From Rubrivivax sp. A210 (GTDB lineage: Bacteria > Pseudomonadota > Gammaproteobacteria > Burkholderiales > Burkholderiaceae_C): DNA of 64,000 nt. Positions 13,567-32,418 of this stretch are shown here, one piece after another (the first letter of the stretch is position 1; each line of letters opens with the position of its first letter). A model generated the notes under the pieces. The model did no database searches, was not told the DNA's origin, and worked only from the letters and a program-made list of their open reading frames with translations. Both the position numbers and the translations under genes were made by a program. The stretch is taken from contig NZ_CAJGBN010000056.1 in NCBI RefSeq assembly GCF_904426505.1, forward strand, positions 186,001 to 250,000. The letters run 5' to 3'.

Positions 13567-13610
13567 GGCGGGGGTCCGAATCGGTGCGGCGGCCATCCTA
13601 CACTGCGGCC

Positions 13611-16031
13611 ATGGAGCGAAGAGCGGCGCTGTGCGGGCTGGTGGCCGCCCTCGGCTGGCTCGCCGGAACGGCGCTGCAGTTGCAGCTGCCGGCGCTGTGG
13701 CAGCCCCTGCCGCTGCTGGCCCTGGGTGCTGCCGCCGGCGTCGCCGTACTGCCGGCACTGCGGCTGTGCCCGCGCCTGCCGGCCCTGCTGGCGCTGGCCC
13801 TGGCCTGCGCCGCGCTGGCCTTTGTTGCCACCAGCGGCCGCGCCGCGTTGCGCTTGGCCGACGTGCTGGACCCGTCGCTGGAAGGCCAGGATCTCATTGT
13901 CACCGGCATCGTCGACGATCTGCCGCAGACCGGCCTGGACGGCACGCGATTCGTCTTCGCCACCGAGTCGGCAAGCTGGCGCGGCCGGCCGGTGGCCGTG
14001 CCGGCGCGGCTGGCCCTGGGCTGGTACCGCGGCCCCGACGAGGATGCCCTGCTCGGCGGCCCGCCCGAAGAAGTGCGCGCCGGCCAGCGCTGGCGGCTGC
14101 CGCTGCGCCTGCGCCAGCCGCACGGCCATCTCAACCCGCACGGCTTCGATCTGGAACTGTGGCTGTTCGAGCGCGGCCTGCGCGCCAGCGGCCAGGTGCG
14201 CTCTCGCGCCGGCGAACCGGCGCTGCTGCTGGCTGCCGTCGCCGGCCGCCCGCTGCAGCGCGCCCGCCAGGCGGCGCGCGACGCCATCCAGATGCAGGTG
14301 GCCGATCCGCGCGCCGCCGGTGTGCTGGCGGCGCTGGCCATCGGTGACCAGGCGGCCATAGGTCGCGCCGACTGGGACTTGTTCCGGACCACCGGGGTCG
14401 CCCATCTGATGTCGATCTCTGGGCTCCACGTCACGATGTTCGCCTGGCTCGCCGGCCTGCTGATAGCCCGCCTCTGGCGCCTGGGCCGGCGCCTGCCGCT
14501 GGCCTGCCCGGCCCAGCAGGCCGCGCGCTGGGGCGGGCTGGCCGCGGCGGCGGCCTACGCACTGCTGGCAGGCTGGGGCGTGCCGGCCCAGCGCACGGTC
14601 TGCATGCTGGCCCTGGTGGCGCTGCTGCGCGGCGGCGCCCGGCGCTGGCCGCTGCCGGCCGTGCTGCTGGCCGCCGCGCTGGCCGTGGCCCTGCTCGACC
14701 CCTGGGCCCTGCTGCAGGCCGGCTTCTGGCTGTCCTTCGTCGCCGTCGGGCTGCTGGCGGCATCGGAGCCGGTGCAGCCGGCCCTGGTCGACGCCCCGGC
14801 TGGCTGGTGGCCGCGGGCGCGACGGGCTCTGCGCGAAGGCCTGCGTTCCCAGGCCGTGGCCACGGTGGGCCTGGCGCCGCTGTCGCTGGTCTTCTTCCAG
14901 CAGCTCTCGCTGGTGGGCTTCGGCGCCAACCTGGTGGCCATTCCGCTGGTCACGCTCTTGATCGCGCCGCTGTCGCTGCTGGGCCTGCTGATGGCACCGC
15001 TGTGGCAGCTGGCGGCGGCGCTGGTGCAGGGCCTGGCGTGGCTGCTGCAGGGCCTGGCCGGCCTACCCTGGGCGCAATGGCAGGCCGCGGTGGCGCCGCC
15101 CTGGGCCGTGGCCTGCGGCCTGCTGGCCGGCCTGCTGGCGGTGGCGCCGCTGCCCTGGCGGTTGCGCCTGCTGGCCCTGCCGCTGATGCTGCCGCTCGTG
15201 GCGCCGCCGCTGCAGCGGCCGGCGCCGGGGCGCTTCGAGCTGGTCGCGGCCGACATCGGCCAGGGCACGGCCGTGCTGCTGCGCACCGCGAACCATCTGC
15301 TGGTCTACGACAGCGGGCCGCAGTACGCCCGCGAGTCCGATGCCGGCGGCCGCGTGCTGGTGCCCCTGCTGCGCGCCCGCGGTGAGCCGCGCATAGCCTT
15401 GCTGGTGCTGAGCCACCGCGACCTCGACCACGTGGGCGGCGCCGCGGCGCTGTTGGCGGCCCTGCCGGTGGCGGCACTGTCGACCTCGCTGGAAGACGGC
15501 CATCCCTTGCGCGCCAGCGGCCCACCCCACACGCGCTGCCTGGCCGGCCAGGTCTGGAATTGGGACGGTGTGAACTTCCAGGTGCTGCACCCGCGGCCCG
15601 AGGACTACGACAGCGCCGCCAAGCCCAATGCGCTGAGCTGCGTGCTGCATGTGCAGGGGGCAGACCGCAGCGTGCTGCTCACCGGCGACATCGAGGCGCC
15701 GCAGGAAGCGGCCCTGCTGCGGCGCAGCCCCGAGGCGCTGCCGGCCGATGTGCTGCTGGTGCCGCACCACGGCAGCCGCACGTCATCAACCGCCGACTTC
15801 ATCGCCGCCGTGGCGCCGCGCCTGGCCCTGGTGCAGGCGGCCTACCGCAGCCGCTATGGCCACCCGGCACCGGCCGTGCTCGCGCGCTATGCGGCCCAGG
15901 GCGTGGCGGTGCAGCGCAGCGACCTCTGCGGCGCCTGGACCCAGCCCGCCGACGGCCCGCCGTCCGCAGCCTTCTGCGAGCGCGAGCGCGCCAGGCGCTA
16001 CTGGCACCACCCAGGGCGCTTCACGCCCTGA
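13611..16031 (+). CDS. comEC: DNA internalization-related competence protein ComEC/Rec2
   Basis: 806 residues from the ATG at 13611. An in-frame upstream start at 13542 would overlap the divergent gene and lacks family support. The order is N-terminal membrane helices, an OB-like DUF4131 region (about 80-200), the competence transmembrane domain with MSISGLHVTMFAWLAG near 267, several more helices, and a C-terminal metallo-beta-lactamase-like domain from about 540. The last has VLSHRDLDHVGG near 600, LTGDIE and LLVPHHGSRTSS. ComEC forms the inner-membrane channel for uptake of single-stranded DNA. The intact metal-binding motif suggests an active nuclease domain. No other competence genes are adjacent. 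Confidence 0.94.
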   Translation: MERRAALCGLVAALGWLAGTALQLQLPALWQPLPLLALGAAAGVAVLPALRLCPRLPALLALALACAALAFVATSGRAALRLADVLDPSLEGQDLIVTGIVDDLPQTGLDGTRFVFATESASWRGRPVAVPARLALGWYRGPDEDALLGGPPEEVRAGQRWRLPLRLRQPHGHLNPHGFDLELWLFERGLRASGQVRSRAGEPALLLAAVAGRPLQRARQAARDAIQMQVADPRAAGVLAALAIGDQAAIGRADWDLFRTTGVAHLMSISGLHVTMFAWLAGLLIARLWRLGRRLPLACPAQQAARWGGLAAAAAYALLAGWGVPAQRTVCMLALVALLRGGARRWPLPAVLLAAALAVALLDPWALLQAGFWLSFVAVGLLAASEPVQPALVDAPAGWWPRARRALREGLRSQAVATVGLAPLSLVFFQQLSLVGFGANLVAIPLVTLLIAPLSLLGLLMAPLWQLAAALVQGLAWLLQGLAGLPWAQWQAAVAPPWAVACGLLAGLLAVAPLPWRLRLLALPLMLPLVAPPLQRPAPGRFELVAADIGQGTAVLLRTANHLLVYDSGPQYARESDAGGRVLVPLLRARGEPRIALLVLSHRDLDHVGGAAALLAALPVAALSTSLEDGHPLRASGPPHTRCLAGQVWNWDGVNFQVLHPRPEDYDSAAKPNALSCVLHVQGADRSVLLTGDIEAPQEAALLRRSPEALPADVLLVPHHGSRTSSTADFIAAVAPRLALVQAAYRSRYGHPAPAVLARYAAQGVAVQRSDLCGAWTQPADGPPSAAFCERERARRYWHHPGRFTP

Positions 16032-16240: not shown

Positions 16241-17572
16241 ATGACGCTGCCCACCGCCAGCGTGCTGGTGGTCGAGGACTCGCGCTCGGCGCTGCGCCTG
16301 CTCACCGACATCCTGATGGCCGCCGGCTACGAGGCGCTGGCGGCCGATGGCGGCGAGGCCGCGCTGGCGCTGGTGGAGCGCCGGTTGCCCGACCTCATCC
16401 TGCTCGACATCTACATGCCGGGCATCGATGGCTTCGAGGTGCTGCGCCAGCTGAAGGCAAGCAAGCGCACGCGCGCCACGCCGGTGGTGCTGCTCAGCGC
16501 GGCCACTGAAACGGCGCAACGGCTCAAGGGCTTTCGCCTCGGTGCCATCGACTTCATTGCCAAGCCCTACCAGCGCGAGGAACTGCTGGCGCGCGTTCAC
16601 ACCCATGTCGAGCTGGCACAGGCGCGCGCCGCGCTCGAACAGCAGGCGGCCTCGCTGGCGCAGACCAACACCCGGCTGCAGCAGGAAGTGGCCGAGCGCG
16701 TGGCCGCCCAGACCGCGCTGCAGGCCCAGCTCGAGGCGGTGCGCGCGATGCACGAGCAGCTGGCCCAGGCCCAGGCCCAGCTGCTGCAGGCCGAGAAGAT
16801 GTCGGCCATCGGCCAGCTGGCCGCCGGCGTGGCGCACGAGTTGAACAACCCCATAGGCTTCGTGCAGTCCAACCTGGGATCGATGGCCGCCTACGTGGAT
16901 GACCTGCTGGGCCTGCTCGACCTCACCACGCGCTGCCTGCGCGAGCACGTCGACCCGGCGCGGCTGACGGTGGTCGAGCAGACGCGGCGCGAGCTCGACG
17001 TCGACTTCCTGGCGCGCGACATGCGCCAGCTGCTGGCCGAATCGCGCGACGGCGTCGACCGCGTGCGCAAGATCGTGCTCAACCTGAAGGAGTTTTCCCA
17101 TGTCGGCGACAACGAATGGGTCTGGACCGATTTGCGCAAGGGCCTGGACAGCACGCTGGCCATCGTCTGGAACGAGCTGAAGTACAAGGCCGACGTGAAC
17201 CGCAGCTACGGCGAGATGCCCGAGATCCTGTGCATCCCCTCGCAGCTGAACCAAGTCTTCATGAACCTGCTCGTCAATGCGGCGCAGGCGATCGACGGCC
17301 ACGGCGAGGTCGATGTCCGCACCGGCAGCGTGGGCGACGAAGTCTGGGTCGAGATCGAGGACAGCGGCCGCGGCATCGCACCCGAGCACATCAACCGTAT
17401 CTTCGAGCCCTTCTTTACCACCAAGCCCGTGGGCCAGGGCACAGGGCTCGGGCTTTCGCTGTCCTACGGCATCGTGTACCGCCACGGCGGGCACTGGACG
17501 GTGCGCAGCACGCCGGGCGAGGGCACCTGCATGCGCATCACGCTGCCGCTCAAGCCGCCGGCTCCAGCCTGA
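16241..17572 (+). CDS. Hybrid response regulator-histidine kinase (receiver first)
   Basis: 443 residues, soluble. An N-terminal CheY-like receiver (about 8-122) has acidic residues in VVEDS, the phospho-acceptor Asp56 in LLDIYMPG and Lys in AKPYQ. A coiled coil at about 125-185, rich in Gln/Ala, leads to a HisKA domain with His199 in GVAHELNNPIGF. The HATPase_c domain has an intact N box (VFMNLLVNAAQAI), G1 (EDSGRGIA), F box (FEPFFTTK) and G2 (GQGTGLGLSLSYG). This receiver-kinase layout is typical of intermediates in phosphorelays controlled by an upstream sensor kinase. No cognate output regulator is adjacent. It precedes the transglutaminase operon on the same strand by 153 bases. A regulatory link to that operon is possible but unproven. 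Confidence 0.92.
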   Translation: MTLPTASVLVVEDSRSALRLLTDILMAAGYEALAADGGEAALALVERRLPDLILLDIYMPGIDGFEVLRQLKASKRTRATPVVLLSAATETAQRLKGFRLGAIDFIAKPYQREELLARVHTHVELAQARAALEQQAASLAQTNTRLQQEVAERVAAQTALQAQLEAVRAMHEQLAQAQAQLLQAEKMSAIGQLAAGVAHELNNPIGFVQSNLGSMAAYVDDLLGLLDLTTRCLREHVDPARLTVVEQTRRELDVDFLARDMRQLLAESRDGVDRVRKIVLNLKEFSHVGDNEWVWTDLRKGLDSTLAIVWNELKYKADVNRSYGEMPEILCIPSQLNQVFMNLLVNAAQAIDGHGEVDVRTGSVGDEVWVEIEDSGRGIAPEHINRIFEPFFTTKPVGQGTGLGLSLSYGIVYRHGGHWTVRSTPGEGTCMRITLPLKPPAPA

Positions 17573-17662
17573 AGCCGCTATCTCGCACGCGCCCTTGCTG
17601 GCATCATCCCGCCATGGTGGCCGCGCCGCGGCCCCCGCTTTTACACTGTCCGCAAACTTGGG

Positions 17663-17678
17663 TGGCCCGCAGCTTGCA
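17663..17678 (+). promoter_or_regulatory. Candidate sigma-54 (RpoN) promoter of the transglutaminase/ATP-grasp operon
   Basis: TGGCCCGCAGCTTGCA at 17663-17678 carries the invariant GG (17664-17665) and GC (17676-17677) with exactly 10 bases between. It closely matches the TGGCAC-N5-TTGCW consensus, with one mismatch in the -24 block. Transcription would start near 17690. AGGAG at 17712-17716 and the GTG start at 17726 follow. No comparable -35/-10 pair for sigma-70 is evident in 17573-17725. Confidence 0.6.
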
Positions 17679-17725: not shown

Positions 17726-20700
17726 GTGTCCATCCATGTCGCGCTGAACCACGTCACGCACTACCGCTACGACCGCCCGGTCACGCTTTCGCCCCAGGTC
17801 GTGCGCCTGCGCCCCGCGCCGCACTGCCGCACCCGCATCCTCGGCTACTCGCTGCGCATCGAGCCCGGCGACCACTTCATCAACTGGCACCAGGACCCCT
17901 TCGCCAACCACCTGGCGCGCCTGGTCTTCCAGGAGAAGACGCGCGAATTCAAGGTCACCGTCGACCTGGTGGCCGAGATGTCGGTGCTCAACCCGTTTGA
18001 CTTCTTCCTCGAGCCCGAGGCCGAGAACTTCCCGTTCACCTATGGGCCCGAGCTGGCGCGCGATCTGCTGCCCTATCTGGACAAGGCGCCGCTGACGCCG
18101 CGCTTCGCCGAGTTCGTGGCCAGCATTCCGCGCACCGAACAGCGCACCATCGATTTCATGGTGGGCCTCAACCAGCGCCTGCAGAAGGACATCAAGTACC
18201 TGATCCGCATGGAGCCCGGCGTGCAGACGCCCGAGGTCACGCTGGTCAACGGCAGCGGCTCCTGCCGCGACACCGGCTGGCTGATGGTGCAGACGCTGCG
18301 CCACCTGGGGCTGGCGGCACGCTTCGTCAGCGGCTACCTGATCCAGTTGAAGCCCGACGTGAAGTCGCTCGACGGCCCCTCAGGCACCGAGATCGACTTC
18401 ACCGACCTGCACGCCTGGTGCGAGGTCTACCTGCCGGGCGCCGGCTGGATCGGCTTCGACCCCACCTCGGGCCTGCTGGCCGGCGAGGGCCACATCCCGG
18501 TGGCCTGCACACCCGAGCCCAGCACCGCCGCGCCGGTGAGCGGCGCGGTGGACGAGAGCGAGGTCGAGTTCTCCCACCACATGGAGGTGACGCGCATCCA
18601 CGAGTCGCCGCGCGTCACCCTGCCCTACACCGATGGCCAGTGGGCCGACATCCTGAAGCTGGGCCACGAGGTCGACTTGCAGCTGCAGGCCCAGGACGTG
18701 CGGCTGACCATGGGCGGCGAGCCCACTTTCGTCGCCGTGGACGACCGCGACGCACCGGAATGGAACACCGACGCCCTCGGCCCCACCAAACGGGGGCTGG
18801 CCACCGAATTGGTGCACAAGCTGCGCGCCAAGTACGGGCAGGGCGGCTTTCTGCACTTCGGCCAGGGCAAGTGGTATCCGGGCGAGCAGCTGCCGCGCTG
18901 GGCGCTGAGCATCTGCTGGCGCGCCGACGGCCAGCCCTGCTGGAACGACGCCAGCCTTTTTGCCGACGAGCGCGACAACCACCAGTACACGGCTGACGAC
19001 GCCAAGGCCTTCGTCCAGGTGCTGACGCGGCGCCTGGGCATCGAGCCCAAGCACGTCCAGCCCGCCTACGAGGACACCTGGTACTACCTCTGGCGCGAGC
19101 GCCGGCTGCCGGTCAACGTCGATCCCTTCGATGCGCGCCTGGACGACGAGATGGAGCGCGCCCGCCTGCGCCGGGTCTTCTCCCAGGGGCTGGACGCCGT
19201 GGTCGGCTACCTGCTGCCGCTCAAGCGCGAATGGCAGGTCGGCACCGCCGGCCCGGCCTGGATCACCGGGCCCTGGTTCCTGCGCGACGAGCGCCTCTAC
19301 CTGATGCCGGGCGATTCGCCCATGGGCCTGCGCCTGCCGCTGGACTCCCTGCCCTGGGCCGCCGCCGGCGAGCGCCCGTGGACGCTGCCGCAAGACCCCT
19401 TCGCGCCCTTCGGCGCCCTGCCCTCGGCCGCGGCCTGGCGCATGCAGCAGGCCTTGCGCGGGCCTGAGGGCGCCGATGCCGGCGCTGCTGGCACGGCAAG
19501 CCACGGCGCAGCGGGCGCCAAGTCCGGCGCCGAAGCCAGCGCTGAAGGCGCCGGCGCGGCCTGGTCCGCCTTCGGCACCGCGGGCACGGCCGCCGCCGGC
19601 CTGCCCGGCGAGCTGCGCATGGCCACCGAGCACGATCCGGTGACGCCGCACCCACGCAACCCGGCCCTGCTGCCGGCACGCTTCGAATCCGCCGGCGAGC
19701 TCACGCGCACGGCGGTCTGCGTGGAGGTGCGCGACCCCCAGCGCGCCAACGGCCCGCGCGCCGAGGCCGCGGCCGAGAAGAAGCTGGGCGGCCGCCGCGG
19801 CGTGCTCTACATCTTCATGCCGCCGCTGCGCTTCCTCGAGGACTATCTCGAGCTGGTGGCCGCGGTCGAGGCGACGACGGCCGAACTGGGCCTGAAGATC
19901 GTCATCGAGGGCTATCCGCCCCCGCGCGACCCGCGCCTCAAGACGCTGGCGGTGACGCCCGACCCGGGCGTGATCGAGGTCAACATCCACCCCGCCAGCA
20001 GCTGGGAACAGCTGGTCGACCACACCGAATTCCTCTACGAGGCGGCGCACCACACACGCCTGTCGACCGAGAAGTTCATGCTCGACGGCCGCCACACCGG
20101 CACCGGCGGCGGCAACCACTTCGTGCTGGGCGGCGCCACGCCGGCCGACAGCCCCTTCCTGCGCCGGCCCGACGTGCTGGCCAGCCTCATCACCTACTGG
20201 CACAACCACCCCTCCCTCAGCTTCCTGTTCAGCGGCCTCTTCATCGGCCCCACCAGCCAGGCGCCGCGCTTCGACGAGGCGCGCAGCGACCAGGTCTACG
20301 AGGTCGAGCTGGGCCTCAACGAGCTGGAGCGCCAGCTCGGGCTCAATGGCAACGTGCCGCCCTGGATCGTCGACCGCACGCTGCGCAACCTGCTGGTCGA
20401 CGTCACCGGCAACACCCACCGCAGCGAGTTCTGCATCGACAAGCTCTACAGCCCCGACGGCCCCACCGGCCGCCTGGGCCTGCTCGAACTGCGCGCCTTC
20501 GAGATGCCGCCGCATGCGCGCATGAGCCTGGCGCAGCAGCTGCTGTTGCGCTCGCTGCTGGCCTGGTTCTGGCGCGAGCCCTACAACGGCCGCGGCGCCA
20601 CCCGCCTGACGCGCTGGGGCACGGGCCTGCACGACCGCTTCATGCTGCCGAGCTTCTGCGAGCTGGATTTCGACGACGTGATGGCCGAGCTGCGCGAGGC

Positions 20701-21289
20701 CGGCTTCGCCTTCGACGCCGCCTGGTTCGCGCCCCACTTTGCCTTCCGCTTCCCGCTCATCGGTGAGCTGGCCACGCAGGGGATTGGCCTCACGCTGCGC
20801 AATGCGCTCGAGCCCTGGCATGTGCTGGGCGAGGAAAACACCGCCGGCGGCACGGCGCGCTATGTCGATTCCTCGCTGGAGCGGCTGGAGGTCAAGGTCA
20901 CGGGCCTCAATGGCAACCGCCACGTCGTCACCGCCAATGGCAACGCCCTGCCGCTGCAGCCCACCGGGCGCGTGGGCGAGTTCGTCTGCGGCGTGCGCTA
21001 CCGCGCCTGGCAGCCGCCCTCGGCCCTGCACCCCACCATCCCGGTCGATGCGCCCATCACCTTCGACCTCGTCGACCGCTGGCACCGCCGCTCCATTGGC
21101 GGCTGCCGCTACCACGTCGCCCACCCGGGCGGGCGCGGCTACGACACCTTCCCGGTCAACGCCTACGAGGCTGAGAGCCGGCGGCTGTCGCGCTTCTTCC
21201 GCTTCGGCCACACGCCGGGCGAGATGGACGTCAAGCCGGCCGTGCCCAGCCTCGAGATGCCCTTCACCCTCGATCTGCGGCCCCGCTGA
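17726..21289 (+). CDS. Transglutaminase-like protease / DUF2126 fusion protein
   Basis: 1187 residues. The start is GTG at 17726 with AGGAG 9 bases upstream. The N-terminal part (about 1-290) is a bacterial transglutaminase-like domain, preceded by its small beta region (MSIHVALNHVTHYRYDRPV). The triad is intact: Cys180 (GSGSCRDTGW), His229 (DLHAWCEVY) and Asp245 (GFDPTSG). The remainder is the large DUF2126 domain with conserved blocks such as LTMGGEPTFV, FGQGKWYPGE and GTGGGNHFVLGG. An Ala/Gly-rich low-complexity insert at about 579-631 interrupts it. Proteins of this architecture have been placed by comparative genomics with ATP-grasp amidoligases and alpha-E proteins in putative peptide synthesis or tagging pathways. 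It is probably cytoplasmic since no signal peptide is seen. It is the first gene of a five-gene operon; 8 bases separate it from the next. Confidence 0.9.
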   Translation: MSIHVALNHVTHYRYDRPVTLSPQVVRLRPAPHCRTRILGYSLRIEPGDHFINWHQDPFANHLARLVFQEKTREFKVTVDLVAEMSVLNPFDFFLEPEAENFPFTYGPELARDLLPYLDKAPLTPRFAEFVASIPRTEQRTIDFMVGLNQRLQKDIKYLIRMEPGVQTPEVTLVNGSGSCRDTGWLMVQTLRHLGLAARFVSGYLIQLKPDVKSLDGPSGTEIDFTDLHAWCEVYLPGAGWIGFDPTSGLLAGEGHIPVACTPEPSTAAPVSGAVDESEVEFSHHMEVTRIHESPRVTLPYTDGQWADILKLGHEVDLQLQAQDVRLTMGGEPTFVAVDDRDAPEWNTDALGPTKRGLATELVHKLRAKYGQGGFLHFGQGKWYPGEQLPRWALSICWRADGQPCWNDASLFADERDNHQYTADDAKAFVQVLTRRLGIEPKHVQPAYEDTWYYLWRERRLPVNVDPFDARLDDEMERARLRRVFSQGLDAVVGYLLPLKREWQVGTAGPAWITGPWFLRDERLYLMPGDSPMGLRLPLDSLPWAAAGERPWTLPQDPFAPFGALPSAAAWRMQQALRGPEGADAGAAGTASHGAAGAKSGAEASAEGAGAAWSAFGTAGTAAAGLPGELRMATEHDPVTPHPRNPALLPARFESAGELTRTAVCVEVRDPQRANGPRAEAAAEKKLGGRRGVLYIFMPPLRFLEDYLELVAAVEATTAELGLKIVIEGYPPPRDPRLKTLAVTPDPGVIEVNIHPASSWEQLVDHTEFLYEAAHHTRLSTEKFMLDGRHTGTGGGNHFVLGGATPADSPFLRRPDVLASLITYWHNHPSLSFLFSGLFIGPTSQAPRFDEARSDQVYEVELGLNELERQLGLNGNVPPWIVDRTLRNLLVDVTGNTHRSEFCIDKLYSPDGPTGRLGLLELRAFEMPPHARMSLAQQLLLRSLLAWFWREPYNGRGATRLTRWGTGLHDRFMLPSFCELDFDDVMAELREAGFAFDAAWFAPHFAFRFPLIGELATQGIGLTLRNALEPWHVLGEENTAGGTARYVDSSLERLEVKVTGLNGNRHVVTANGNALPLQPTGRVGEFVCGVRYRAWQPPSALHPTIPVDAPITFDLVDRWHRRSIGGCRYHVAHPGGRGYDTFPVNAYEAESRRLSRFFRFGHTPGEMDVKPAVPSLEMPFTLDLRPR

Positions 21290-21297
21290 AGCAGGCC

Positions 21298-23859
21298 GTG
21301 CAGCAGCAGTTCCAGGGCTCGTTTCCGTTTGACCGCACGCCGGGGCCTGGGCACCCGGCGGCGCATGCCCTGGCCAGCCGCGTGCTGCCGGCCGAGGCCG
21401 GCGTGTGGGACGAACTGCGTGACGGCCAGGGCGCGCTGCGTGCAGCATGGCAGCGCTTCGCGCAGACCGTGCCGGCGCCGGCCAGCGGTCTGGAGATGGT
21501 CCAGGATCTCGACCGCCGCGTCGAGCAGGTGGGGCAGCGCATTGCCCTCGACGGCGTCACGCACAACGTCTTCGCCGATGGCGGCGTGGCCAGCCGGCCC
21601 TGGTCGCTGGAGCTGCTGCCGCTGCTCATCGAACCGGCCGACTGGGCCCAGATCGAGGCCGGCGTGGTGCAGCGCGCCGAACTGCAGGAGCGCGTGCTGG
21701 CCGATCTCTACGGCCCGCAGCGCCTGCTGCACGAGGGCCTGCTGCCGCCCTCGCTGCTGCTGCGCCACCCGGGCTGGCTGCGGCCCATGCGCGGCGTGGC
21801 GCCGCCGGGCGGGCTGCGGCTGTTCATCGTCGCCTTCGACATCGCTCGTGGCCCCGACGGCCGCTGGTGGCTGATGTCGCAGCGCACCCAGGGCCCCTCG
21901 GGCCTGGGCTATGTGCTGCACAACCGCCTCGTCATCTCGCGCCAGTTTCCCGACGCCTTCCGCGACCTGCGCGTGCAGCACATCGCCAGTTCCTACCGTC
22001 GCCTGCTCGACACGCTGGAGATCACGGCCCGCCAGGTTTCGCGCCAGGCGCGCGACGGCGAGACGCCGCGCATCGTGCTGCTCACGCCGGGGCCCTATGC
22101 CGAGACCTATTTCGAGCATGCCTACCTGGCGCGCTACCTCGGCCTGCCGCTGGTGGAAGGCGGCGACCTCACGGTGCGCGGCGAGCGCCTGTTCCTGCGC
22201 ACGGTGGAAGGCCTGGAGCCGGTGCATGGCCTGCTGCGCCGCGTCGACGACGACTGGTGCGACCCGCTCGAGCTGCGCCCCGATTCGGCCCTGGGCGTGC
22301 CGGGCCTGATCCAGGCCGCACGCGCCGGCACGGTGGTGATGGCCAATGCCCTGGGCAGCGCCTTTCTCGAATCGCCCGCCATCCAGGGCTTCATGCCCGG
22401 CATTGCCGAAAGGCTGACCGGCGCGCAGCTGTTGCTGCCCTCGCTGCCCACCTGGTGGTGCGGCGAACCGGCGGCCTGGGCCGATGTGCGTGGCGGGCTG
22501 CATGACAAGATCGTTCGCTCCACCTTCCCCCGCGGCGGCCTCGCGTCCCAGGTGGGCCAGGCCGCGGCGGTGGCCGAAGACCCCGATGCCTGGACCGTGC
22601 AGGGGCGGCTGCGCTACTCGCGCGCACCCATCTGGGGCAATGGAGCGGTCACGGCCCGCCCCTCCATGGTGCGCGTTTATGCGATTGCCGACGGCGGCGG
22701 ACGCTGGCATGTGCTGCCCGGCGGCATGACGCGGGTGGCGCAGCGCGAGGAAGGCAGCGTCTCCATGCAGCGCGGCGGCACCAGCCTGGACACCTGGGTG
22801 CTGACCGAAGGCGCGGTCGACAGCTTCTCGATGCTGCCGCAGCGCCTGCAGGTGGACGACATCGTGCAGCGCCGCCGCCCGGTGAGCAGCCGCACCGGCG
22901 AGAACCTGTTCTGGCTGGGCCGCTACACCGAGCGCACCGAGCAGCTGGTGCGGCTGGCGCGCGCCACGCTGACGCTGATCGACGCCGACACCGACGTGCC
23001 GCCGGCTGTGCTGCAAGCGCTGTCGACGCTGGCCATCAGCGCCGGGCTGGCACCCCCGGGCGTGCCGACGCTGCTGCAGTCGTCCCACCTCTTCGAGCGC
23101 GCCGTGCTCGCCGGCCTGGGTGACGAGACCGGCGCCACCAGTGCGGCCTACAACCTGGCGGCACTGGAGCGCGCCGGCATGGCCTTGCGCGAGCGCCTGT
23201 CGTCGGAGCACTGGGGCCTGATTGCCGCCATGCGCGAGGGCTTCCAGCACACGCTGCGCAGCGCCCACGGCGAACTGCCGACGCTGGCCCAGGTGATGCC
23301 GGCGCTCGACCGTCTGGCGCTGGAACTGGCGGCCGTGACCGGCGCCCAGAGCGACCGCATGACGCGCGACCACGGTTGGCGCCTGCTCACCGTGGGCCGG
23401 TTGATTGAACGCCTGGGCGGCGTCTGCGCGCGCCTGGAGGCCTTTGTCGCCGCCGGCGCGCTGGCCAGCGCCGCCGGTATCGACCTGCTGCTCGAGCTCT
23501 TCGACAGCGTCATCACCTTCCGGGCCCGCTACCAGCGCCACGAAGACCTGCTGGCGCTGGCCGACCTGCTGGTGTTCGACAGCGCCAACCCGCGCGCCTT
23601 TGCCGGGGTGCTGCGCCGGCTGCGCACCGAGATCGGCAAGCTGCCCGGCCTGCCCGAGGTGCTGCAGCCGTTGCGTGCCCTGCTGCCGGCCGAGGGCGCC
23701 GGGCTCACGCTCGAAGACCTGCGCGACGCCGACGACGCCGAGATCGCCCGCGCCCTGCTGGCGCTGGCCCACGACCTGCGCGGCGCCGCGGTGGCGCTGG
23801 CCGAGCGCGTGGGCGAACGCTATTTCACGCTCGCCCAGGGCATGGATCAGCGGGTCTAG
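21298..23859 (+). CDS. Fused circularly permuted ATP-grasp and alpha-E (DUF403) protein
   Basis: 853 residues from the GTG at 21298, 8 bases after the previous stop. Residues about 1-520 align with circularly permuted type 2 ATP-grasp proteins (TPGPYAETYFEHAYLARYLG, LRRVDDDWCDP, LPGGMTRVA, LDTWVL). Residues about 530-850 are an alpha-E helical domain (SRTGENLFWLGRYTERTEQL). Compared with the separate ATP-grasp protein encoded at 24849, the nucleotide-binding blocks look altered. VKEVHGAGGYGM is replaced by VRSTFPRGG, and EDNLRVPSG by QRTQGPSG. I infer that this copy may have reduced or different ATP chemistry. It is sandwiched between two transglutaminase genes. Members with this fusion occur widely in proteobacteria beside DUF2126 proteins, with no experimentally settled function that I know of. 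Confidence 0.88.
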   Translation: MQQQFQGSFPFDRTPGPGHPAAHALASRVLPAEAGVWDELRDGQGALRAAWQRFAQTVPAPASGLEMVQDLDRRVEQVGQRIALDGVTHNVFADGGVASRPWSLELLPLLIEPADWAQIEAGVVQRAELQERVLADLYGPQRLLHEGLLPPSLLLRHPGWLRPMRGVAPPGGLRLFIVAFDIARGPDGRWWLMSQRTQGPSGLGYVLHNRLVISRQFPDAFRDLRVQHIASSYRRLLDTLEITARQVSRQARDGETPRIVLLTPGPYAETYFEHAYLARYLGLPLVEGGDLTVRGERLFLRTVEGLEPVHGLLRRVDDDWCDPLELRPDSALGVPGLIQAARAGTVVMANALGSAFLESPAIQGFMPGIAERLTGAQLLLPSLPTWWCGEPAAWADVRGGLHDKIVRSTFPRGGLASQVGQAAAVAEDPDAWTVQGRLRYSRAPIWGNGAVTARPSMVRVYAIADGGGRWHVLPGGMTRVAQREEGSVSMQRGGTSLDTWVLTEGAVDSFSMLPQRLQVDDIVQRRRPVSSRTGENLFWLGRYTERTEQLVRLARATLTLIDADTDVPPAVLQALSTLAISAGLAPPGVPTLLQSSHLFERAVLAGLGDETGATSAAYNLAALERAGMALRERLSSEHWGLIAAMREGFQHTLRSAHGELPTLAQVMPALDRLALELAAVTGAQSDRMTRDHGWRLLTVGRLIERLGGVCARLEAFVAAGALASAAGIDLLLELFDSVITFRARYQRHEDLLALADLLVFDSANPRAFAGVLRRLRTEIGKLPGLPEVLQPLRALLPAEGAGLTLEDLRDADDAEIARALLALAHDLRGAAVALAERVGERYFTLAQGMDQRV

Positions 23860-23878
23860 CAGGACATTGGCGAAAACG

Positions 23879-24823
23879 ATGGCGATGGAACTGACGGTCC
23901 AGCACGAGACCCGCTACGACTACACCGCGCCGGTGTCGCTGGCCCATCACCTGGCCCATCTGCGGCCCCTGCACGACGCCCACCAGCAGGTGCTGGCGCA
24001 CAGCCTGGAAATCGAGCCGGCGCCGGGCCAGCAGCGCGACAGCGTCGACGACCAGGGCAATGCGCAATGCCATTTCAGCCTCGCCCAGCCGCACCGCCGC
24101 TTGCGCGTGCGCGCCGCGAGCCAGGTGCGCGTGCGGCCACGCTTTGCCGCGCTGGCACCGGCGGCGGGGCCGGCCTGGGACACGCTGGCGGCCCGGCTGC
24201 GCTACGTGGCCGGCGCACCCTTCGTGCCCGAGCTCGAGTACGCGCTGCCATCGCCCTATGTGCCGCGCCTGCGCGAGCTGCGCGACTTTGCCGCCGCCAG
24301 CTTCGCGCCCGGGCGGCCCGTGGCTGACGCCGCCATCGAGCTGATGCGGCGCATCCACGCCGGTTTCCGCTATGAAAGCCGCAGCACCGACATCGACACG
24401 CCTCTCACGCGCGTGCTCGAGCAGCGGCGCGGCGTGTGCCAGGACTTCGCCCACCTGATGGCCGGCATGCTGCGCATGCTGGGCCTGCCGGCGCGCTATG
24501 TCAGCGGCTACCTGCTGACGCACGCGCCCGAAGGTGGTGCGCGCATGCAGGGTGCCGACGCCTCGCACGCCTGGGTCCAGGTCTGGTGCCCGGGCACGCC
24601 CGGCGTGCCCGACACGGGCGCGGGTGCCGGCTGGCTCGATCTGGACCCCACCAACGACGTGGTGCCCGGCAGCGGCCATGTGCGGCTGGCCATCGGGCGC
24701 GACTTCGGCGACGTGACGCCGCTGCGCGGCGTCATCCGCGGCGGTGGCCGCCACACCCTCACCGTGGGGGTCGATCTGCGCCCCACTGGCCAGAACCCGC
24801 AGAGCGGGCCCGGGGATTGCTAG
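23879..24823 (+). CDS. Stand-alone transglutaminase-like cysteine protease
   Basis: 314 residues from the ATG at 23879; a second ATG at 23885 is possible. It has an N-terminal beta domain (VQHETRYDYTAPVSLAHHLAHLRP-type, shared with the family) followed by the papain-like transglutaminase core. The triad is Cys187 (GVCQDFAH), His230 (ASHAWVQVW) and Asp256 (LDPTND). There is no signal peptide, so it is expected to be cytoplasmic. It is smaller than its operon mate at 17726 and lacks DUF2126. Transglutaminase-like enzymes may cleave or form isopeptide/amide bonds; in this operon class a peptidase trimming an amidoligase product is the usual hypothesis. It is 19 bases downstream of the fused ATP-grasp gene and 25 bases before the next. 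Confidence 0.9.
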   Translation: MAMELTVQHETRYDYTAPVSLAHHLAHLRPLHDAHQQVLAHSLEIEPAPGQQRDSVDDQGNAQCHFSLAQPHRRLRVRAASQVRVRPRFAALAPAAGPAWDTLAARLRYVAGAPFVPELEYALPSPYVPRLRELRDFAAASFAPGRPVADAAIELMRRIHAGFRYESRSTDIDTPLTRVLEQRRGVCQDFAHLMAGMLRMLGLPARYVSGYLLTHAPEGGARMQGADASHAWVQVWCPGTPGVPDTGAGAGWLDLDPTNDVVPGSGHVRLAIGRDFGDVTPLRGVIRGGGRHTLTVGVDLRPTGQNPQSGPGDC

Positions 24824-24848
24824 AGAGCATGCCAAGGAAGCTGGGACG

Positions 24849-26285
24849 ATGAAGACGCCATTTGATGAAATGAACACCGCCGAACGCGCGGTGCGCGAGC
24901 ACTACCGCGTCTACGACGCCTGGCTGCAACGCCAGCCGCCCGAGACCATGCGCACGCGCCGGGCCGAGGCCGAGATGATCTTCCGCCGTGTCGGCATCAC
25001 CTTCGCGGTCTACGGCGCCAAGGACGAGGACGGCTCCGGCACCGAACGCCTGATCCCCTTCGATCTCATCCCGCGCGTGATTCCGTCGCAGGAATGGATC
25101 TCGATGGAGGCCGGCCTGCGCCAACGCGTGGTGGCCCTCAACCGCTTCATCCACGACGTCTACCACGGCCAGGAAATCATCAAGGCCGGCATCGTGCCGG
25201 CCGAGCAGGTGCTGCAGAACGCCCAGTTCAGGCCGGTGATGATGGGCGTCAACGTGCCGGGCAATGTCTATTCGCACATCGCCGGCGTCGACATCGTGCG
25301 CGCCGGCAATGCCGACGGCAGCGGCAGCTACTACGTGCTGGAGGACAACCTGCGCGTGCCCAGCGGCGTGAGCTACATGCTCGAGAACCGCAAGATGATG
25401 ATGCGGCTCTTCCCCGAGCTGTTCGCGCGCCATCGCGTGGCGCCGGTGGCTCATTACCCCGATCTCTTGCTCGAAACGCTGCGCGCGGTGGCGCCGGCCG
25501 GCGTGAGCGAGCCCACGGTGGTGGTGCTCACCCCCGGCATGTACAACAGCGCCTACTTCGAGCACGCCTTCCTGGCCCAGCAGATGGGGGTCGAACTCGT
25601 CGAGGGCCAGGATCTGGTGGTGCGCGACGGCTTCGTCTACATGCGCACGACCCAGGGCCCCAAGCGGGTCGACGTCATCTACCGCCGCGTCGACGACGAC
25701 TTCCTCGACCCCAAGGTCTTCCGCAAGGACAGCACCCTGGGCTGCGCCGGCCTCATCGACGTTTACCGCGCCGGCAACATCGCGCTGTGCAATGCCGTCG
25801 GCACCGGCATCGCCGACGACAAGAGCATCTATCCCTACGTGCCGAAGATGATCGAGTTCTATCTCGGCGAGAAGCCCATTCTCAACAACGTGCCCACCTA
25901 CCTCTGCCGCGACGCCGACGACCTCAAGTACGTGCTGGCGAACATGGGCGAGCTGGTGGTGAAGGAAGTGCATGGCGCCGGCGGCTACGGCATGCTGGTG
26001 GGCCCGGCCGCCACCAAGGCCGAGATCGCCGAGTTTGCCGAGGTCGTGAAGGCCAACCCGACGAATTACATCGCCCAGCCCACGCTGTCGCTGTCGAGCT
26101 GCCCCACCTATGTCGACAGCGGCATCGCACCGCGCCACATCGACCTGCGCCCCTTCGTGCTCTCGGGCACCAGCGTGCAGATGGTGCCGGGCGGGCTCAC
26201 GCGCGTGGCCCTGAAGGAAGGCTCGCTGGTCGTCAACAGCAGCCAGGGCGGCGGCACCAAGGACACCTGGGTTCTCGAAGACTGA
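24849..26285 (+). CDS. Circularly permuted type 2 ATP-grasp protein (probable amidoligase)
   Basis: 478 residues from the ATG at 24849. It has the full set of conserved blocks of the family (formerly DUF404/DUF407): YYVLEDNLRVPSGVSYMLENR, TPGMYNSAYFEHAFLA, RRVDDDFLDP, VVKEVHGAGGYGMLVGP and HIDLRPFVLSG. It ends with GGTKDTWVLED. ATP-grasp enzymes activate a carboxylate as acyl phosphate and join it to an amine; the acceptor here is unknown. All nucleotide-binding residues that differ in the fused paralogue at 21298 are retained, so this is the likely catalytic copy. Its last codons overlap a 13-bp tandem repeat that separates it from the alpha-E gene. Confidence 0.92.
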   Translation: MKTPFDEMNTAERAVREHYRVYDAWLQRQPPETMRTRRAEAEMIFRRVGITFAVYGAKDEDGSGTERLIPFDLIPRVIPSQEWISMEAGLRQRVVALNRFIHDVYHGQEIIKAGIVPAEQVLQNAQFRPVMMGVNVPGNVYSHIAGVDIVRAGNADGSGSYYVLEDNLRVPSGVSYMLENRKMMMRLFPELFARHRVAPVAHYPDLLLETLRAVAPAGVSEPTVVVLTPGMYNSAYFEHAFLAQQMGVELVEGQDLVVRDGFVYMRTTQGPKRVDVIYRRVDDDFLDPKVFRKDSTLGCAGLIDVYRAGNIALCNAVGTGIADDKSIYPYVPKMIEFYLGEKPILNNVPTYLCRDADDLKYVLANMGELVVKEVHGAGGYGMLVGPAATKAEIAEFAEVVKANPTNYIAQPTLSLSSCPTYVDSGIAPRHIDLRPFVLSGTSVQMVPGGLTRVALKEGSLVVNSSQGGGTKDTWVLED

Positions 26286-26328
26286 GTGCAAAGACTCAGC
26301 ACGAAGACCGAGTACGAAGATTGAGTGG
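26277..26328 (+). repeat. Four tandem copies of a 13-bp unit spanning a stop codon
   Basis: Four back-to-back 13-base units occupy 26277-26289, 26290-26302, 26303-26315 and 26316-26328, with consensus GAAGACTGAGTAC and two to four differences per copy. The first copy encodes the last codons of the ATP-grasp gene and its TGA. The later copies fill the gap before the alpha-E start at 26339. Because 13 is not a multiple of 3, the units lie in different frames. GGAG at 26327-26330 may act as ribosome binding site for the next gene. Confidence 0.85.
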
Positions 26329-26338
26329 AGATCAAGAG

Positions 26339-27304
26339 ATGCTTTCGCGAACCGCCGACCACCTCTTCTGGATGGCCCGCTACATGGAGCGGGCCGAAAA
26401 CACGGCGCGGATGCTCGATGTCAACTACCAGACTTCGCTGCTGCCGCAGAGCACCGACATGGCCGAGCAGGGCTGGCGCGGCCTGCTTTCGATCAGCGAG
26501 CTGACCTGGAGCTTCTCGCAGAAGTACCAGGCCGTCGGCGCGCGCAGCGTCATGGATTTCATGGTGCGCGACGAGACCAACCCGTCCAGCATCGTGGCCT
26601 GCCTGCGCGCGGCGCGCGAGAACGCGCGTGCGGTGCGCGGCGCGCTCACCACCGAGGTCTGGGAGACGCAGAACCAGACCTGGCTCGAGTTCAACCGCAT
26701 GCTCAAGGACGGCGCCTTCGAGCGCGACCCGGGCAGTTTCTTCGAGTGGGTCAAGTTCCGCTCGCACCTGAGCCGCGGCGTCACCGTGGGCACCATGCTG
26801 CAGGACGAGGCGCTGCACTTCCTGCGCATCGGCACCTTCCTCGAGCGCGCCGACAACACGGCGCGGCTGCTCGACGTCAAGTTCCAGGCGCTGGCCGGCG
26901 GCGATTACTTCGGCCCCGGCGCCAGCAAGGAGGGCATGGAGGTCGATTTCTACCACTGGAGCGCGATCCTGCGTTCGGTCTCGGGCTTCGAGATCTACCG
27001 CAAGGTCTACCGCAACGTGATCCACCCCGAGAAGGTGGCCGAACTGCTGATCCTGCGCCCCGACATGCCGCGCTCGCTGGCCGCCTGCATGAACGAGGCG
27101 GTGGCGAATCTGCAGCTGGTGGCCAACGAGCAGAGCGGCGAGACGCTGCGCCGCGCCGGCCGCCTGAAGTCCGACCTGCGTTATGGCCGCATCGACGAGA
27201 TCCTGGCCACCGGCCTGCACGCCTACCTGACGCAGTTCCTTGACCGCGTCGGCGATCTGGGCGTGGGCATCAGCCGCGACTTCCTCGTACCTATGGCGGC
27301 GTGA
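26339..27304 (+). CDS. Alpha-E domain (DUF403) protein
   Basis: 321 residues from the ATG at 26339. It is an all-alpha protein opening with the family motif MLSRTADHLFWMARYMERAENTARML, and it has later blocks ETWEQN-like (VWETQNQTWLEFN) and FLERADNTARLLDVKF. Alpha-E proteins are found with circularly permuted ATP-grasp enzymes and transglutaminases and are predicted to be their partners; no catalytic activity is established. It is the last gene of the five-gene operon. Its 3' end overlaps that of the convergent mltB by 14 bases (27291-27304). The same domain occurs fused to the ATP-grasp paralogue at 21298, so the operon encodes one fused and one split version. Confidence 0.92.
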   Translation: MLSRTADHLFWMARYMERAENTARMLDVNYQTSLLPQSTDMAEQGWRGLLSISELTWSFSQKYQAVGARSVMDFMVRDETNPSSIVACLRAARENARAVRGALTTEVWETQNQTWLEFNRMLKDGAFERDPGSFFEWVKFRSHLSRGVTVGTMLQDEALHFLRIGTFLERADNTARLLDVKFQALAGGDYFGPGASKEGMEVDFYHWSAILRSVSGFEIYRKVYRNVIHPEKVAELLILRPDMPRSLAACMNEAVANLQLVANEQSGETLRRAGRLKSDLRYGRIDEILATGLHAYLTQFLDRVGDLGVGISRDFLVPMAA

Positions 27305-28367
27305 CGGGTCGCGCGGCTTTTGCCGCCGCCACGGCCTGTCCCAGCTCGATCACCGCCATCGCGTAGTAGCTCGACGCGTTGTAGCGCGTGAGGGCACGGA
27401 AGTTCACGGTGCCGGCCACATAGCTGGGCGGCTGTTCGCCGTTGTGCAACTCCACCAGCGCCAGCGGACCCTCGTGGGCGCGGCCATCGTCGGACAGCGC
27501 AGCACCCTTGTCGGCCATCTGCGTGGCACTGAAGCTGGGCGCGATGTCCGGCGCCAGCAGCGCGGCGCGGTTCTCGGCGTCTGCCGGCGGCACCACCTCG
27601 TAGCGCGCCGGCAGGCCGCGCTGCCAGCCGGCGCGCTGCAGGTATTGCGCCACCGAGCCGACGATGTCGGCGCGGCTGCGGTAGAGGTCGACATGGCCGT
27701 CGCCGTCGAAGTCGAGCGCGTGGCGGTTGATGCTGCCGGGCATGAACTGCGGCCAGCCGATGGCGCCGGCAAACGAGCCCTTCACCGTCTGCGGGTCGAC
27801 CCCCTCTCGCGCGCACAGCACGAAGAACTCGGCCAGTTCCTGGCGGAAAAAGGCGCGGCGGTCGCTGCGGCCGGCGGGGAAATCGAAGGCCAGCGTGGAC
27901 AGCGCGTCGATGACGCGGAAATTGCCGGTGATGCGGCCATAGTAGGTCTCGACGCCGACGATGCCCACCACCACCTCGGCCGGCACGCCGAAGCGTTCTT
28001 CGGCCTGGGCCAGCCAGTCGGCGTTGTCCTGCCAGAACGCCAGGCCGGCGGCGATGCGCTGCGGCTCGATGAAGCGCTCGCGGTAGGCGGCCCAGTTCTT
28101 GGCCGTGGCCACGGCCGGCGGCATGATGAGCTTGCGCACCGCCTCGATGCGGTGGGCGCGCGCCAGCTGCGTCGCCAGCCAGCGCCGGTCCAGGCCCTGG
28201 GCCGCGGCGGTCTCGGCGGCAAAGCTGCGGATCTCGGCACGACCGGCATAGGAGGGCTCGCGCTTGTTGTTGACGGCGTGGCTGCCGTGGCGGGCGCTGG
28301 CCGGGGTGGCGATCAGCAGCGCGGCCAGGGCCAGCGAAGCCAGTGGATGAGGGGCGGTCAGGCGCAA
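27291..28367 (-). CDS. mltB: Lytic murein transglycosylase B
   Basis: 358 residues if started at the TTG at 28367, which gives a clean signal peptide (hydrophobic run LASLALAALLIATPASA). An upstream start would run into the preceding gene, whose stop is at 28379. No lipobox cysteine is seen, so this may be the soluble periplasmic (SltB-like) form rather than a lipoprotein. The catalytic Glu140 is in IVGVETYYGRITGNFRV, and the family motifs SFAGAIGWPQFMPGS and the calcium-like loop DFDGDGHVDLY are present. The enzyme cleaves peptidoglycan glycan strands to 1,6-anhydro-muropeptides. It is downstream of the moxR-DUF58-tgpA genes by 11 bases and is probably cotranscribed with them. Confidence 0.9.
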   Translation of the reverse strand: MRLTAPHPLASLALAALLIATPASARHGSHAVNNKREPSYAGRAEIRSFAAETAAAQGLDRRWLATQLARAHRIEAVRKLIMPPAVATAKNWAAYRERFIEPQRIAAGLAFWQDNADWLAQAEERFGVPAEVVVGIVGVETYYGRITGNFRVIDALSTLAFDFPAGRSDRRAFFRQELAEFFVLCAREGVDPQTVKGSFAGAIGWPQFMPGSINRHALDFDGDGHVDLYRSRADIVGSVAQYLQRAGWQRGLPARYEVVPPADAENRAALLAPDIAPSFSATQMADKGAALSDDGRAHEGPLALVELHNGEQPPSYVAGTVNFRALTRYNASSYYAMAVIELGQAVAAAKAARPVTPP

Positions 28368-28378
28368 GACGATCAGGC

Positions 28379-30466
28379 TCAGCTCGGGATGGAAGGCGGC
28401 GAGTTTAGGGGCGACCGCTGCGCTTTTTCCGCCTTCGCCGCCTTCGCTGCGGCACGGGCCGCACGGGCAAAGCGCGGCCACCATAGCGCATCGGGCGTGG
28501 CGGTGGCGGCGGCGCCGTAGCGGCGGCGGTCGAGTTCATCCAGCAGTGCGGCCAGGGCCTCGCCGCGCCCATTGAGGGCGGCGCGCACCAAGCCGGCGCG
28601 CGCCCTGGGTGCATGGTGTACCTGCACCGCCACGCCCAGCCTCGCCAGCCGTGCCTGCACGCGGCGTTGCAGCCTTTGCCAGGGGTCTTGGCGGCGGCGG
28701 TCCCAGGCGGCCCAGGCGGCGCCGGTCAGCGCGCCACCGCTGGCCAGGCCTATCAGCAGGTAGGCCAGGTCCTGCCAGTCGGGCGCCGCAAAGCCAAGGC
28801 TGCGCAGCAGGTCAAACTGCTGGCCGCGCGCATAGCCCAGCACCCACTGGTTCCAGCGGTTGTTGGCCGCTTCCCAGGCGCCGCGCAGCGCGGCCAGCAG
28901 GTTGGGGTCCAGGGTGTTGATGGCGCCGGCCACCAGGCCCGGCGGCGCCGCCAGGCTGCGCCCCCGCCGCACGCGGTCGGGCGCCACGGCCGCGGTCGGG
29001 TCGACGCGCTGCCAGCCGCTGCCGGCCTGCCAGATCTCGGCCCAGGCGTGGGCGTGGCGCTGGCGCACGATCCACCAGCCGTCCACCGGCGCCGGATCGG
29101 TGCCCTGGTAGCCGGTGACGATGCGCGCCGGCACGTCCAGCGCCCGCATCACGATGACGAAGGCGCTGGCGAAGTGCTCGCAGAAGCCGAGCTTGCGGTC
29201 GAGCCAGAACTCGTCAATGGCATCGCCCTCGTAGACGCCCGGGGTCAGCGTGTAGCTGTAGCCGCCGCGGGCGATGTGCTGCAGCACGGCGCCGGCCAGG
29301 GTGGCCGCGTCGGCCTCGGCCAGCTCGGGGCGCTGGCGCAGCTGCTGCGCCCAGTCGCGCGTGCGCGGGTTGGCGCCGGGCGGCAGCGCCAGGTGCTCGG
29401 CGAGGCCGGGCACGGGCGCACGCGGGCCGTGGCGGTGTTCCAGCCAGGCGCTGGCCTGCAGGCGCAGCCGCTCGTCGACCGGCCGGTCGGTCTGCCACTG
29501 GCCGTCGCCGCGCTGGCTGGCCACCCAGCCAGGAACGAGGGGCGCGCTGTCGGCGCGATCAGGCGTCATCTCCAGCAGCGGCAGCAGCGGCAGGCGGCTG
29601 GGTTCCAGCGTCATCTCGTAGCGCAGCGGTGCGCCCACGGTCTCGAGCTCCAGCCGCAGCCGGCCGCCCTGGGCAAAGCCGGTCAGGCCGCGTGTCCACT
29701 GGCGGCCGTCGAAGCGCACCAGCACCGGGCCGCGGAAATACATCTGGTCCGGCCTCGGCACGGTGTCGGCAAAGCGCAGACGCAGCGCGATGGAATCGTC
29801 TTCGGCCACCTCGGCGACACCGCCCAGGCGCATCGAGCCCGACAGGCCGGTGCGACCGGCTGCATCCTGCGGCAGGCTCCACAGTGGCGCGATGCGCGGA
29901 AACAGCAGGAAGAGCACGGCCATCACCGGCAACGCCAGCAACGCCGTGCGCGCCGCCACGCCGCCGGCCCGGGCCAGCGGGGGCCGGCCCACCGGCATAT
30001 GGGCCAGCACCAGGGCCGTCAGCAGGGCCCACACGGCCACCAGCAGCCACAGGCCGATGAGCAGGGTCTGCGAATAGAGGAAGTGAGTGAGCACCAGGAA
30101 GAAGCCGAGGAAGAACAGCACCAGGGCGTCGCGGCGCGCACGCAACTCCAGCGTCTTGAGCGTGACCAGCATCACCAGCAGCGTGATGCCGGCTTCCTTG
30201 CCCAGCAGCGTGCGTTCCTGCCACAGCGTGAGGCCGCAGGCCAGCAGCAGCAACACGATCAGCGCGGCGCGGTGGGGCAGGCTGCCGCCCAGCAGCGCGA
30301 TGCGGCCGCGCCACAGCAGCACCGCGGCGGCGATGGCGCCACACCACAGCGGCAGGTGCAGCAAATGGGGCGTGATGGTCCAGGCGATGACGGCGAGCTG
30401 GAACAGCGTGTCGCGCGTCTCGCGCGGCAGGTGGGCGCTGCGCTCCTGCAGGCCGGCGATCCCCAT
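28379..30466 (-). CDS. DUF3488/transglutaminase membrane protein (TgpA family)
   Basis: 695 residues from the ATG at 30466, which shares one base with the upstream stop (TGATG); a GTG at 30475 is the alternative. There are five or six N-terminal membrane helices (about 20-190), a periplasmic region of about 350 residues with a transglutaminase core (Cys in LGFCEHFASAF, His in RHAHAWAEIW, Asp in RVDPTAAV), and a last membrane helix (YLLIGLASGGALTGAAWAAW) with a cytosolic tail. In Pseudomonas aeruginosa TgpA has periplasmic transglutaminase activity and is important for growth; its in vivo target is unclear. It sits in the classic moxR-DUF58-tgpA order. Confidence 0.92.
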   Translation of the reverse strand: MGIAGLQERSAHLPRETRDTLFQLAVIAWTITPHLLHLPLWCGAIAAAVLLWRGRIALLGGSLPHRAALIVLLLLACGLTLWQERTLLGKEAGITLLVMLVTLKTLELRARRDALVLFFLGFFLVLTHFLYSQTLLIGLWLLVAVWALLTALVLAHMPVGRPPLARAGGVAARTALLALPVMAVLFLLFPRIAPLWSLPQDAAGRTGLSGSMRLGGVAEVAEDDSIALRLRFADTVPRPDQMYFRGPVLVRFDGRQWTRGLTGFAQGGRLRLELETVGAPLRYEMTLEPSRLPLLPLLEMTPDRADSAPLVPGWVASQRGDGQWQTDRPVDERLRLQASAWLEHRHGPRAPVPGLAEHLALPPGANPRTRDWAQQLRQRPELAEADAATLAGAVLQHIARGGYSYTLTPGVYEGDAIDEFWLDRKLGFCEHFASAFVIVMRALDVPARIVTGYQGTDPAPVDGWWIVRQRHAHAWAEIWQAGSGWQRVDPTAAVAPDRVRRGRSLAAPPGLVAGAINTLDPNLLAALRGAWEAANNRWNQWVLGYARGQQFDLLRSLGFAAPDWQDLAYLLIGLASGGALTGAAWAAWDRRRQDPWQRLQRRVQARLARLGVAVQVHHAPRARAGLVRAALNGRGEALAALLDELDRRRYGAAATATPDALWWPRFARAARAAAKAAKAEKAQRSPLNSPPSIPS

Positions 30467-31455: not shown

Positions 31456-32378
<923 letters not shown>

Positions 32379-32418
32379 GCGCGGGACCATACTCGAAAAG
32401 CGAAAGCGCGATCCCACC

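Follow-up and report, generated by a model that had tools for sequence, protein, structure and literature searches.

A transglutaminase, DUF2126 and ATP-grasp/alpha-E gene cluster of Rubrivivax sp. A210: a predicted amide-bond system with a probable pseudo-ligase and sigma-54-type promoter sites

Gene content of the locus

Rubrivivax sp. A210, whose genome of 5.37 Mb is assembled in 72 contigs, carries a cluster of five genes, here named g1 to g5, with the domains of a predicted amide-bond system. The cluster was analysed within a window of 64,000 nucleotides (nt), positions 186,001-250,000 of contig NZ_CAJGBN010000056.1, and all coordinates below refer to this window. The five genes occupy positions 17726-27304 of the + strand, are separated by gaps of 8, 19, 25 and 53 nt, and form two modules: a transglutaminase-DUF2126 protein, a fused ATP-grasp-alpha-E protein and a transglutaminase (g1 to g3), followed by an ATP-grasp and an alpha-E protein (g4 and g5). 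The first-pass annotation had described a tight, same-strand cluster that unites fused and split ATP-grasp/alpha-E versions in one amide-bond operon, and the coordinates, gaps and Pfam domains bear this out; related systems had already been predicted by comparative genomics. Its statement that signal peptides are absent agrees with the N-termini as read by eye. A search of NCBIfam at E 0.001 returned zero matches for any of the five proteins. Among the named loci used for comparison, the nearest relative is a Rubrivivax metagenome bin, whose g1 is 80% identical.

The product of g1 (17726..21289, + strand; 1187 aa) is a transglutaminase-like protease fused to a DUF2126 amidoligase, as indicated by Pfam, an AlphaFold2 model and fold searches. 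Its Pfam domains are Bact_transglu_N, Transglut_core and DUF2126, the last described as "Putative amidoligase enzyme". Thus g1 does hold the transglutaminase domains for which it was first named, and the DUF2126 part that had been missed makes up about 910 of the 1187 residues. The match to DUF2126 (PF09899) covers residues 276-1185 (18551..21280, + strand) with E = 0 and 1316 bits, and in the AlphaFold2 model and fold searches this domain folds like glutamine synthetase. It is accordingly a candidate for a second amide ligase, of another fold than the ATP-grasp proteins. Sequence identity to glutamine synthetases, GmaS and YbdK is 6 to 14%, and DUF2126 differs from these by its fusion to a transglutaminase and by a low-confidence, Ala/Gly-rich insert at residues 580-644, where relatives show no consensus. 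No paper on the function of DUF2126 was found in the literature searched.

Both transglutaminases are predicted to be cysteine proteases, with a Cys-His-Asp triad recognized by motif and alignment. In g1 the motif-assigned triad is Cys180-His229-Asp245 (18263..18460, + strand), and its three columns are invariant in 38/38 aligned sequences; when the motifs were counted more strictly in 71 sequences, 53 had the Cys, 71 the His and 59 the Asp motif. The stand-alone transglutaminase g3 (23879..24823, + strand; 314 aa; Pfam) resembles the structures 3isr and 6g49. Its Cys and Asp motifs occur in 63/63 sequences and its His motif, as written, in 56/63, the window included. Elsewhere in the genome, a third transglutaminase (L007:4142-5095, on contig C1 of genome G000) resembles the transglutaminase part of g1; it lies on a different contig from the genome's two alpha-E domains.

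The remaining genes encode g2, a circularly permuted ATP-grasp fused to alpha-E (21298..23859, + strand; 853 aa; Pfam CP_ATPgrasp_2 and Alpha-E), g4, a split circularly permuted ATP-grasp (24849..26285, + strand; 478 aa; Pfam CP_ATPgrasp), and g5, a stand-alone alpha-E protein (26339..27304, + strand; 321 aa; PF04168, E = 3e-101). At 26276-26326, a 13-nt unit (consensus CGAAGACTGAGTA) is repeated in tandem about four times; the repeats start within the end of g4 and run on into the gap between g4 and g5.

The fused and the split ATP-grasp proteins

The two ATP-grasp types were compared residue by residue in 86 fused and 48 split proteins, with residues numbered as in g4 (E165, N167, K372, G378, G379, G381, D432). 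In the split proteins the E-x-N motif and the later Asp are invariant (48/48). In g4 this motif is E165-D-N167 (25341..25349, + strand), predicted to supply Mg ligands, a role that we take over from glutathione and glutathionylspermidine synthetases. K372 and the Gly-rich loop up to G381 (25962..25991, + strand) are equally constant, with K372, G378, G379 and G381 in 48/48 split proteins, as is D432 (26142..26144, + strand), found in 48/48 split and 0/86 fused proteins. With the E-x-N, Asp, Lys and Gly-rich loop all kept, and with the catalytic roles that we presume for them, g4 is predicted to be an active Mg-ATP ligase. Its residues 3-478 align with the solved structure 3n6x at E = 1.6e-219.

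The fused proteins present a different picture, N167 and D432 being absent in 86/86 and E165 in 85/86. Where the split enzymes have an E-x-N-x-R motif, whose N and R occur in 48/48, the g2 protein has R196-x-Q198 (21883..21891, + strand), with the R present in 84/86 and the Q in 77/86 fused proteins. G378, G379 and G381 of the loop are kept in 4, 27 and 4 of the 86, respectively, and K372 in 63/86, with Arg in its place in the g2 of the window. The model nevertheless retains the ATP-grasp fold, and the alpha-E domain (residues 530-843; 22885..23826, + strand) keeps both ER motifs. The fused protein g2 is therefore read as a probable pseudo-ligase, in which the Mg-ATP ligands have been lost and the fold preserved. 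An earlier suggestion that fused and split versions perform two related ligation steps is weakened by the loss of Asn and Asp in all, and of Glu in all but one, of the fused proteins, since these are the residues expected to hold Mg-ATP. Two active ATP-grasps would require g2 to use other metal or phosphate ligands; the retention of K372 in most fused proteins is set against the loss of most loop glycines and the Arg of the window, and we consider this alternative unlikely.

Gene order and co-occurrence

The wider comparison covered 80 named loci, and the order-level set comprised 150 genomes and 40 loci, several of them ended by contig ends. The first module is largely constant: among named loci with enough downstream sequence, g2 follows g1 in 63/69 and g3 follows in 61/69. 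The second module is placed more freely. Of the 80 named loci, 19 have g4-g5 homologues upstream on the same strand, 22 have them upstream and divergent, and 2 downstream as here; the homologues were not found in 13 despite at least 9 kb on both sides, and in the 24 loci that were cut off their position was not judged. Within the genus, 24 of 31 genomes have DUF2126, and 18 of the 23 others were taken, 4 of these loci being too short for gene order. The order g1-g2-g3-g4-g5 is complete in 14/14 same-genus loci that are long enough, and because of this the five-gene order is far beyond chance. The idea of the operon as a fixed unit does not extend outside the genus, where the two modules are mostly arranged otherwise; moreover, g4 may own a sigma-54-like site.

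Alpha-E occurs in 81 of the 150 order genomes and DUF2126 in 50, all of them within the 81. The fused type was found in 27/150, each time with a second, split-type alpha-E and in 26/27 with DUF2126, the exception (G144) being a genome that is 84% complete; the fused set was picked by hand from the match table by score and frame length, and the counts ignore relatedness. A split alpha-E in a genome that lacks the fused protein is thus common, whereas in this set the fused protein always came with a split alpha-E. The fused protein is nearby in 20/40 order-level loci, of which one, in genome G058, has the gene order of the window; there the operon continues with another transglutaminase and an Anbu-like gene.

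Comparison with known systems

This gene set is not a new system and belongs, as a typical example, to a class already predicted in print. Iyer et al., in 2009, are reportedly the source of the general comparative-genomics prediction for such gene sets, and may already have noted the degenerate fused ATP-grasp or the transglutaminase-DUF2126 fusion. The Anbu operon (ATP-grasp, alpha-E, transglutaminase and Anbu; PP_2685-2688 in P. putida, and also in Y. bercovieri) shares a split ATP-grasp and alpha-E by a transglutaminase, here g4, g5 and g3. Unlike that operon, the window locus has the additional transglutaminase-DUF2126 and fused ATP-grasp-alpha-E proteins, and no Anbu was found at the locus or in the genome: a PF00227 search of the genome at E 0.001 gave one match, an HslV adjoining HslU. 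The same search in relatives gives weaker, Anbu-like matches, for example in G058 and G002. For Y. bercovieri, PMC6376114 reports that the ATP-grasp of the Anbu operon releases phosphate from ATP and that no peptidase activity of Anbu was found.

One general prediction for such gene sets, cited second-hand from PMC5666114 and PMC6376114, is protein tagging of a ubiquitin-like or glutamylation-like kind, in which proteins would receive amino acids or peptides from the ligases and lose them again to the transglutaminases. In Rubrivivax sp. A210, however, the gaps of 8 to 53 nt leave a tag gene no space, and the genome has HslV/HslU and no Anbu at the threshold used; tagging appears improbable here.

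Another closely related system is I35_5080-5083 of B. cenocepacia H111, described in PMC5491218 as DUF404/407, DUF403, transglutaminase and "large" transglutaminase proteins. By analogy with Burkholderia sp. TSV86 (L111), the large protein probably carries DUF2126. Among structural relatives, Mfla_0391 of Methylobacillus flagellatus (PDB 3n6x) is titled a "putative" glutathionylspermidine synthase. Among the matches listed, the YgiC/YjfC peptide-polyamine ligases, glutathionylspermidine synthetase, Cp1B and eukaryotic glutathione synthetases show 8 to 13% identity, so that their substrates are not transferable. By analogy, the substrate is more likely to be an amino acid, a polyamine or a small peptide than a protein tag, because the best structural analogues are peptide-polyamine and glutathione-type ligases and a tag gene has no room between the genes.

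Promoter sites and proposed nitrogen control

Promoters of the sigma-54 type carry a -24/-12 consensus, which served as the search pattern. A site of this type, TGGCCCGCAGCTTGCA (17663..17678, + strand), lies 47 nt ahead of the GTG codon that starts g1; it has one mismatch to the consensus and is the only pattern match in the window (0.46 expected); across the genome there are 46 matches, versus 7 for the reversed pattern. In relatives, 300 nt upstream were scanned with GG and GC fixed and at most two mismatches, the window being counted. Sites were found before 39/80 g1 homologues and 29/44 g4 homologues, in comparison with 2/80 and 1/44 in reversed sequence, 11/434 for other genes, 2/69 for g2, 2/63 for g3 and 39/2370 for random windows. 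Within the genus, 16/18 loci have a site with at most two mismatches within 160 nt of g1, and the flanking sequence varies. A second sigma-54-like site, GGGCCCGGGGATTGCT (24806..24821, + strand; two mismatches), overlaps the end of g3 and precedes g4; it recurs in 10/14 same-genus loci at up to three mismatches, a looser threshold that makes it weaker than the g1 site. One same-genus genome (L213) has a perfect consensus, TGGCACGCTGATTGCA, upstream of its g4 homologue, a hint that the second module can be transcribed from a promoter of its own.

Published work on relatives bears on nitrogen control as well. For B. cenocepacia H111, PMC5491218 counts I35_5080-83 among the targets common to sigma-54 and NtrC; in an ntrC mutant shifted to low ammonium, these genes show log2 changes of -8.2, -9.4, -9.4 and -6.0. 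Nitrate, compared with ammonium, raises the expression of PP_2685 and PP_2688 in P. putida (PMC8050072). These nitrogen and sigma-54 links, like the intact protease motifs of both transglutaminases, would also suit a mainly catabolic system, in which transglutaminase-fold proteins release nitrogen by degrading peptides or amides when cells starve, with the ligases confined to preparing or recycling substrates. Two ATP-consuming ligases would, however, be costly for pure breakdown, and neither a transporter nor a deaminase is among the five genes; we consider such a mainly catabolic role unlikely.

Proposed function

The explanation preferred here, to which we assign even chances, is a cytoplasmic cycle of amide ligation and cleavage that is induced by nitrogen starvation and controlled by sigma-54. 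Nitrogen limitation would switch the operon on through sigma-54. At the expense of ATP, two ligases, the DUF2126 domain of g1 and g4 acting with the alpha-E protein g5, would link a carboxylate to an amine, be it an amino acid, a peptide or a polyamine. The transglutaminase-fold proteases, the front of g1 and g3, would hydrolyse or transfer the product, and g2, turning over no ATP, may bind substrate or partner, serving the other ligases as a pseudo-ligase with a substrate-binding or regulatory role. This cycle draws on the domains, the modelled folds of g1 and g2, the residue losses of g2, the shared sigma-54-type sites and the pairing of the fused type with a split alpha-E; from these the activities, the nitrogen control in Rubrivivax sp. 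A210, the role of g2 and the direction of the cycle are predicted. ATP turnover is suggested by analogy with one enzyme, the Y. bercovieri Anbu-operon ATP-grasp.

Several observations weigh against the proposed cycle. At the threshold used, 41/80 g1 homologues have no sigma-54-like site, and the best NtrC-type dyads in the window have 5 mismatches before g1 and 4 before g4, which is chance level; in relatives, dyads with at most 3 mismatches show a modest enrichment (13/80 for g1, 9/44 for g4, 3/69 for the g2 control). According to PMC7801951, PP_2686-2688 of P. putida rise under nitrogen limitation 14 to 20-fold in an rpoN mutant and 11 to 15-fold in the wild type, in which PP_2685 barely rises (1.12). 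The urt genes likewise rise equally in the mutant, and the authors still assign the PP_2686-2688 operon, which is of the Anbu kind, to NtrB/NtrC. Constant expression of Anbu operon proteins under various conditions is cited in PMC5666114. By analogy, nitrogen control of such operons is well supported, and sigma-54 dependence has one species for it and another, with an Anbu-type operon, against it. The g2 of the window retains Gly at the G378 and G379 positions, though not at G381. Comparison by hhalign of DUF2126 with glutamine synthetases gave a probability below 1% with shallow profiles, and a profile comparison of the ATP-grasps with GSP_synth proteins gave no match; because these profile comparisons yielded nothing, the two links are drawn from predicted folds and from motifs read by eye. 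Finally, pull-downs in Y. bercovieri showed no specific interactions among operon proteins (PMC6376114).

A bolder proposal, which we advance tentatively and think somewhat more likely wrong than right, places the g2-type proteins in a pseudo-ATP-grasp class of their own that spans phyla. In this class a new site, conserved as R-x-Q, Q491 and WWCGE, would have replaced the Mg-ATP site. Through the fused alpha-E, such a protein might carry or regulate substrate between two ligases, one of glutamine-synthetase fold and one an ATP-grasp, and the amide cycle, run under nitrogen starvation, would yield an undescribed metabolite or modification.

Neighbouring genes

A ComEC-like gene adjoins the cluster in 25/80 named loci. 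In the window, a response-regulator/kinase gene (16241-17572) stands between the ComEC-like gene (13542-16031) and g1. Just before g1, the stretch at about 17594-17612 resembles a short stretch preceding g1 in most same-genus loci; read by eye, it looks like the 3' end of a ComEC gene, which would fit an insertion of the kinase gene. Downstream (27291-32426, - strand) lie genes for an MltB lytic transglycosylase, a TgpA-type membrane transglutaminase and two further proteins, which we presume to be DUF58 and MoxR, the DUF58 one having no Pfam match. The MltB open reading frame is convergent with g5 and overlaps its end by 14 nt. Homologues of these four genes occur in the same order in locus L158.

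Significance

Gene sets of this kind are widespread, DUF2126 alone being present in one third of the order genomes (50/150), and their role has been predicted since 2009, with no proof found in the literature searched. The present analysis corrects the parts list, adding a further candidate ligase that differs in fold and marking one protein as a probable pseudo-ligase, and it supplies a condition that can be tested. The shared sigma-54-type promoter points to the condition under which the product should be sought, and, as the fused protein has lost its ATP site, assays can begin with the other two ligase-like proteins of the three.
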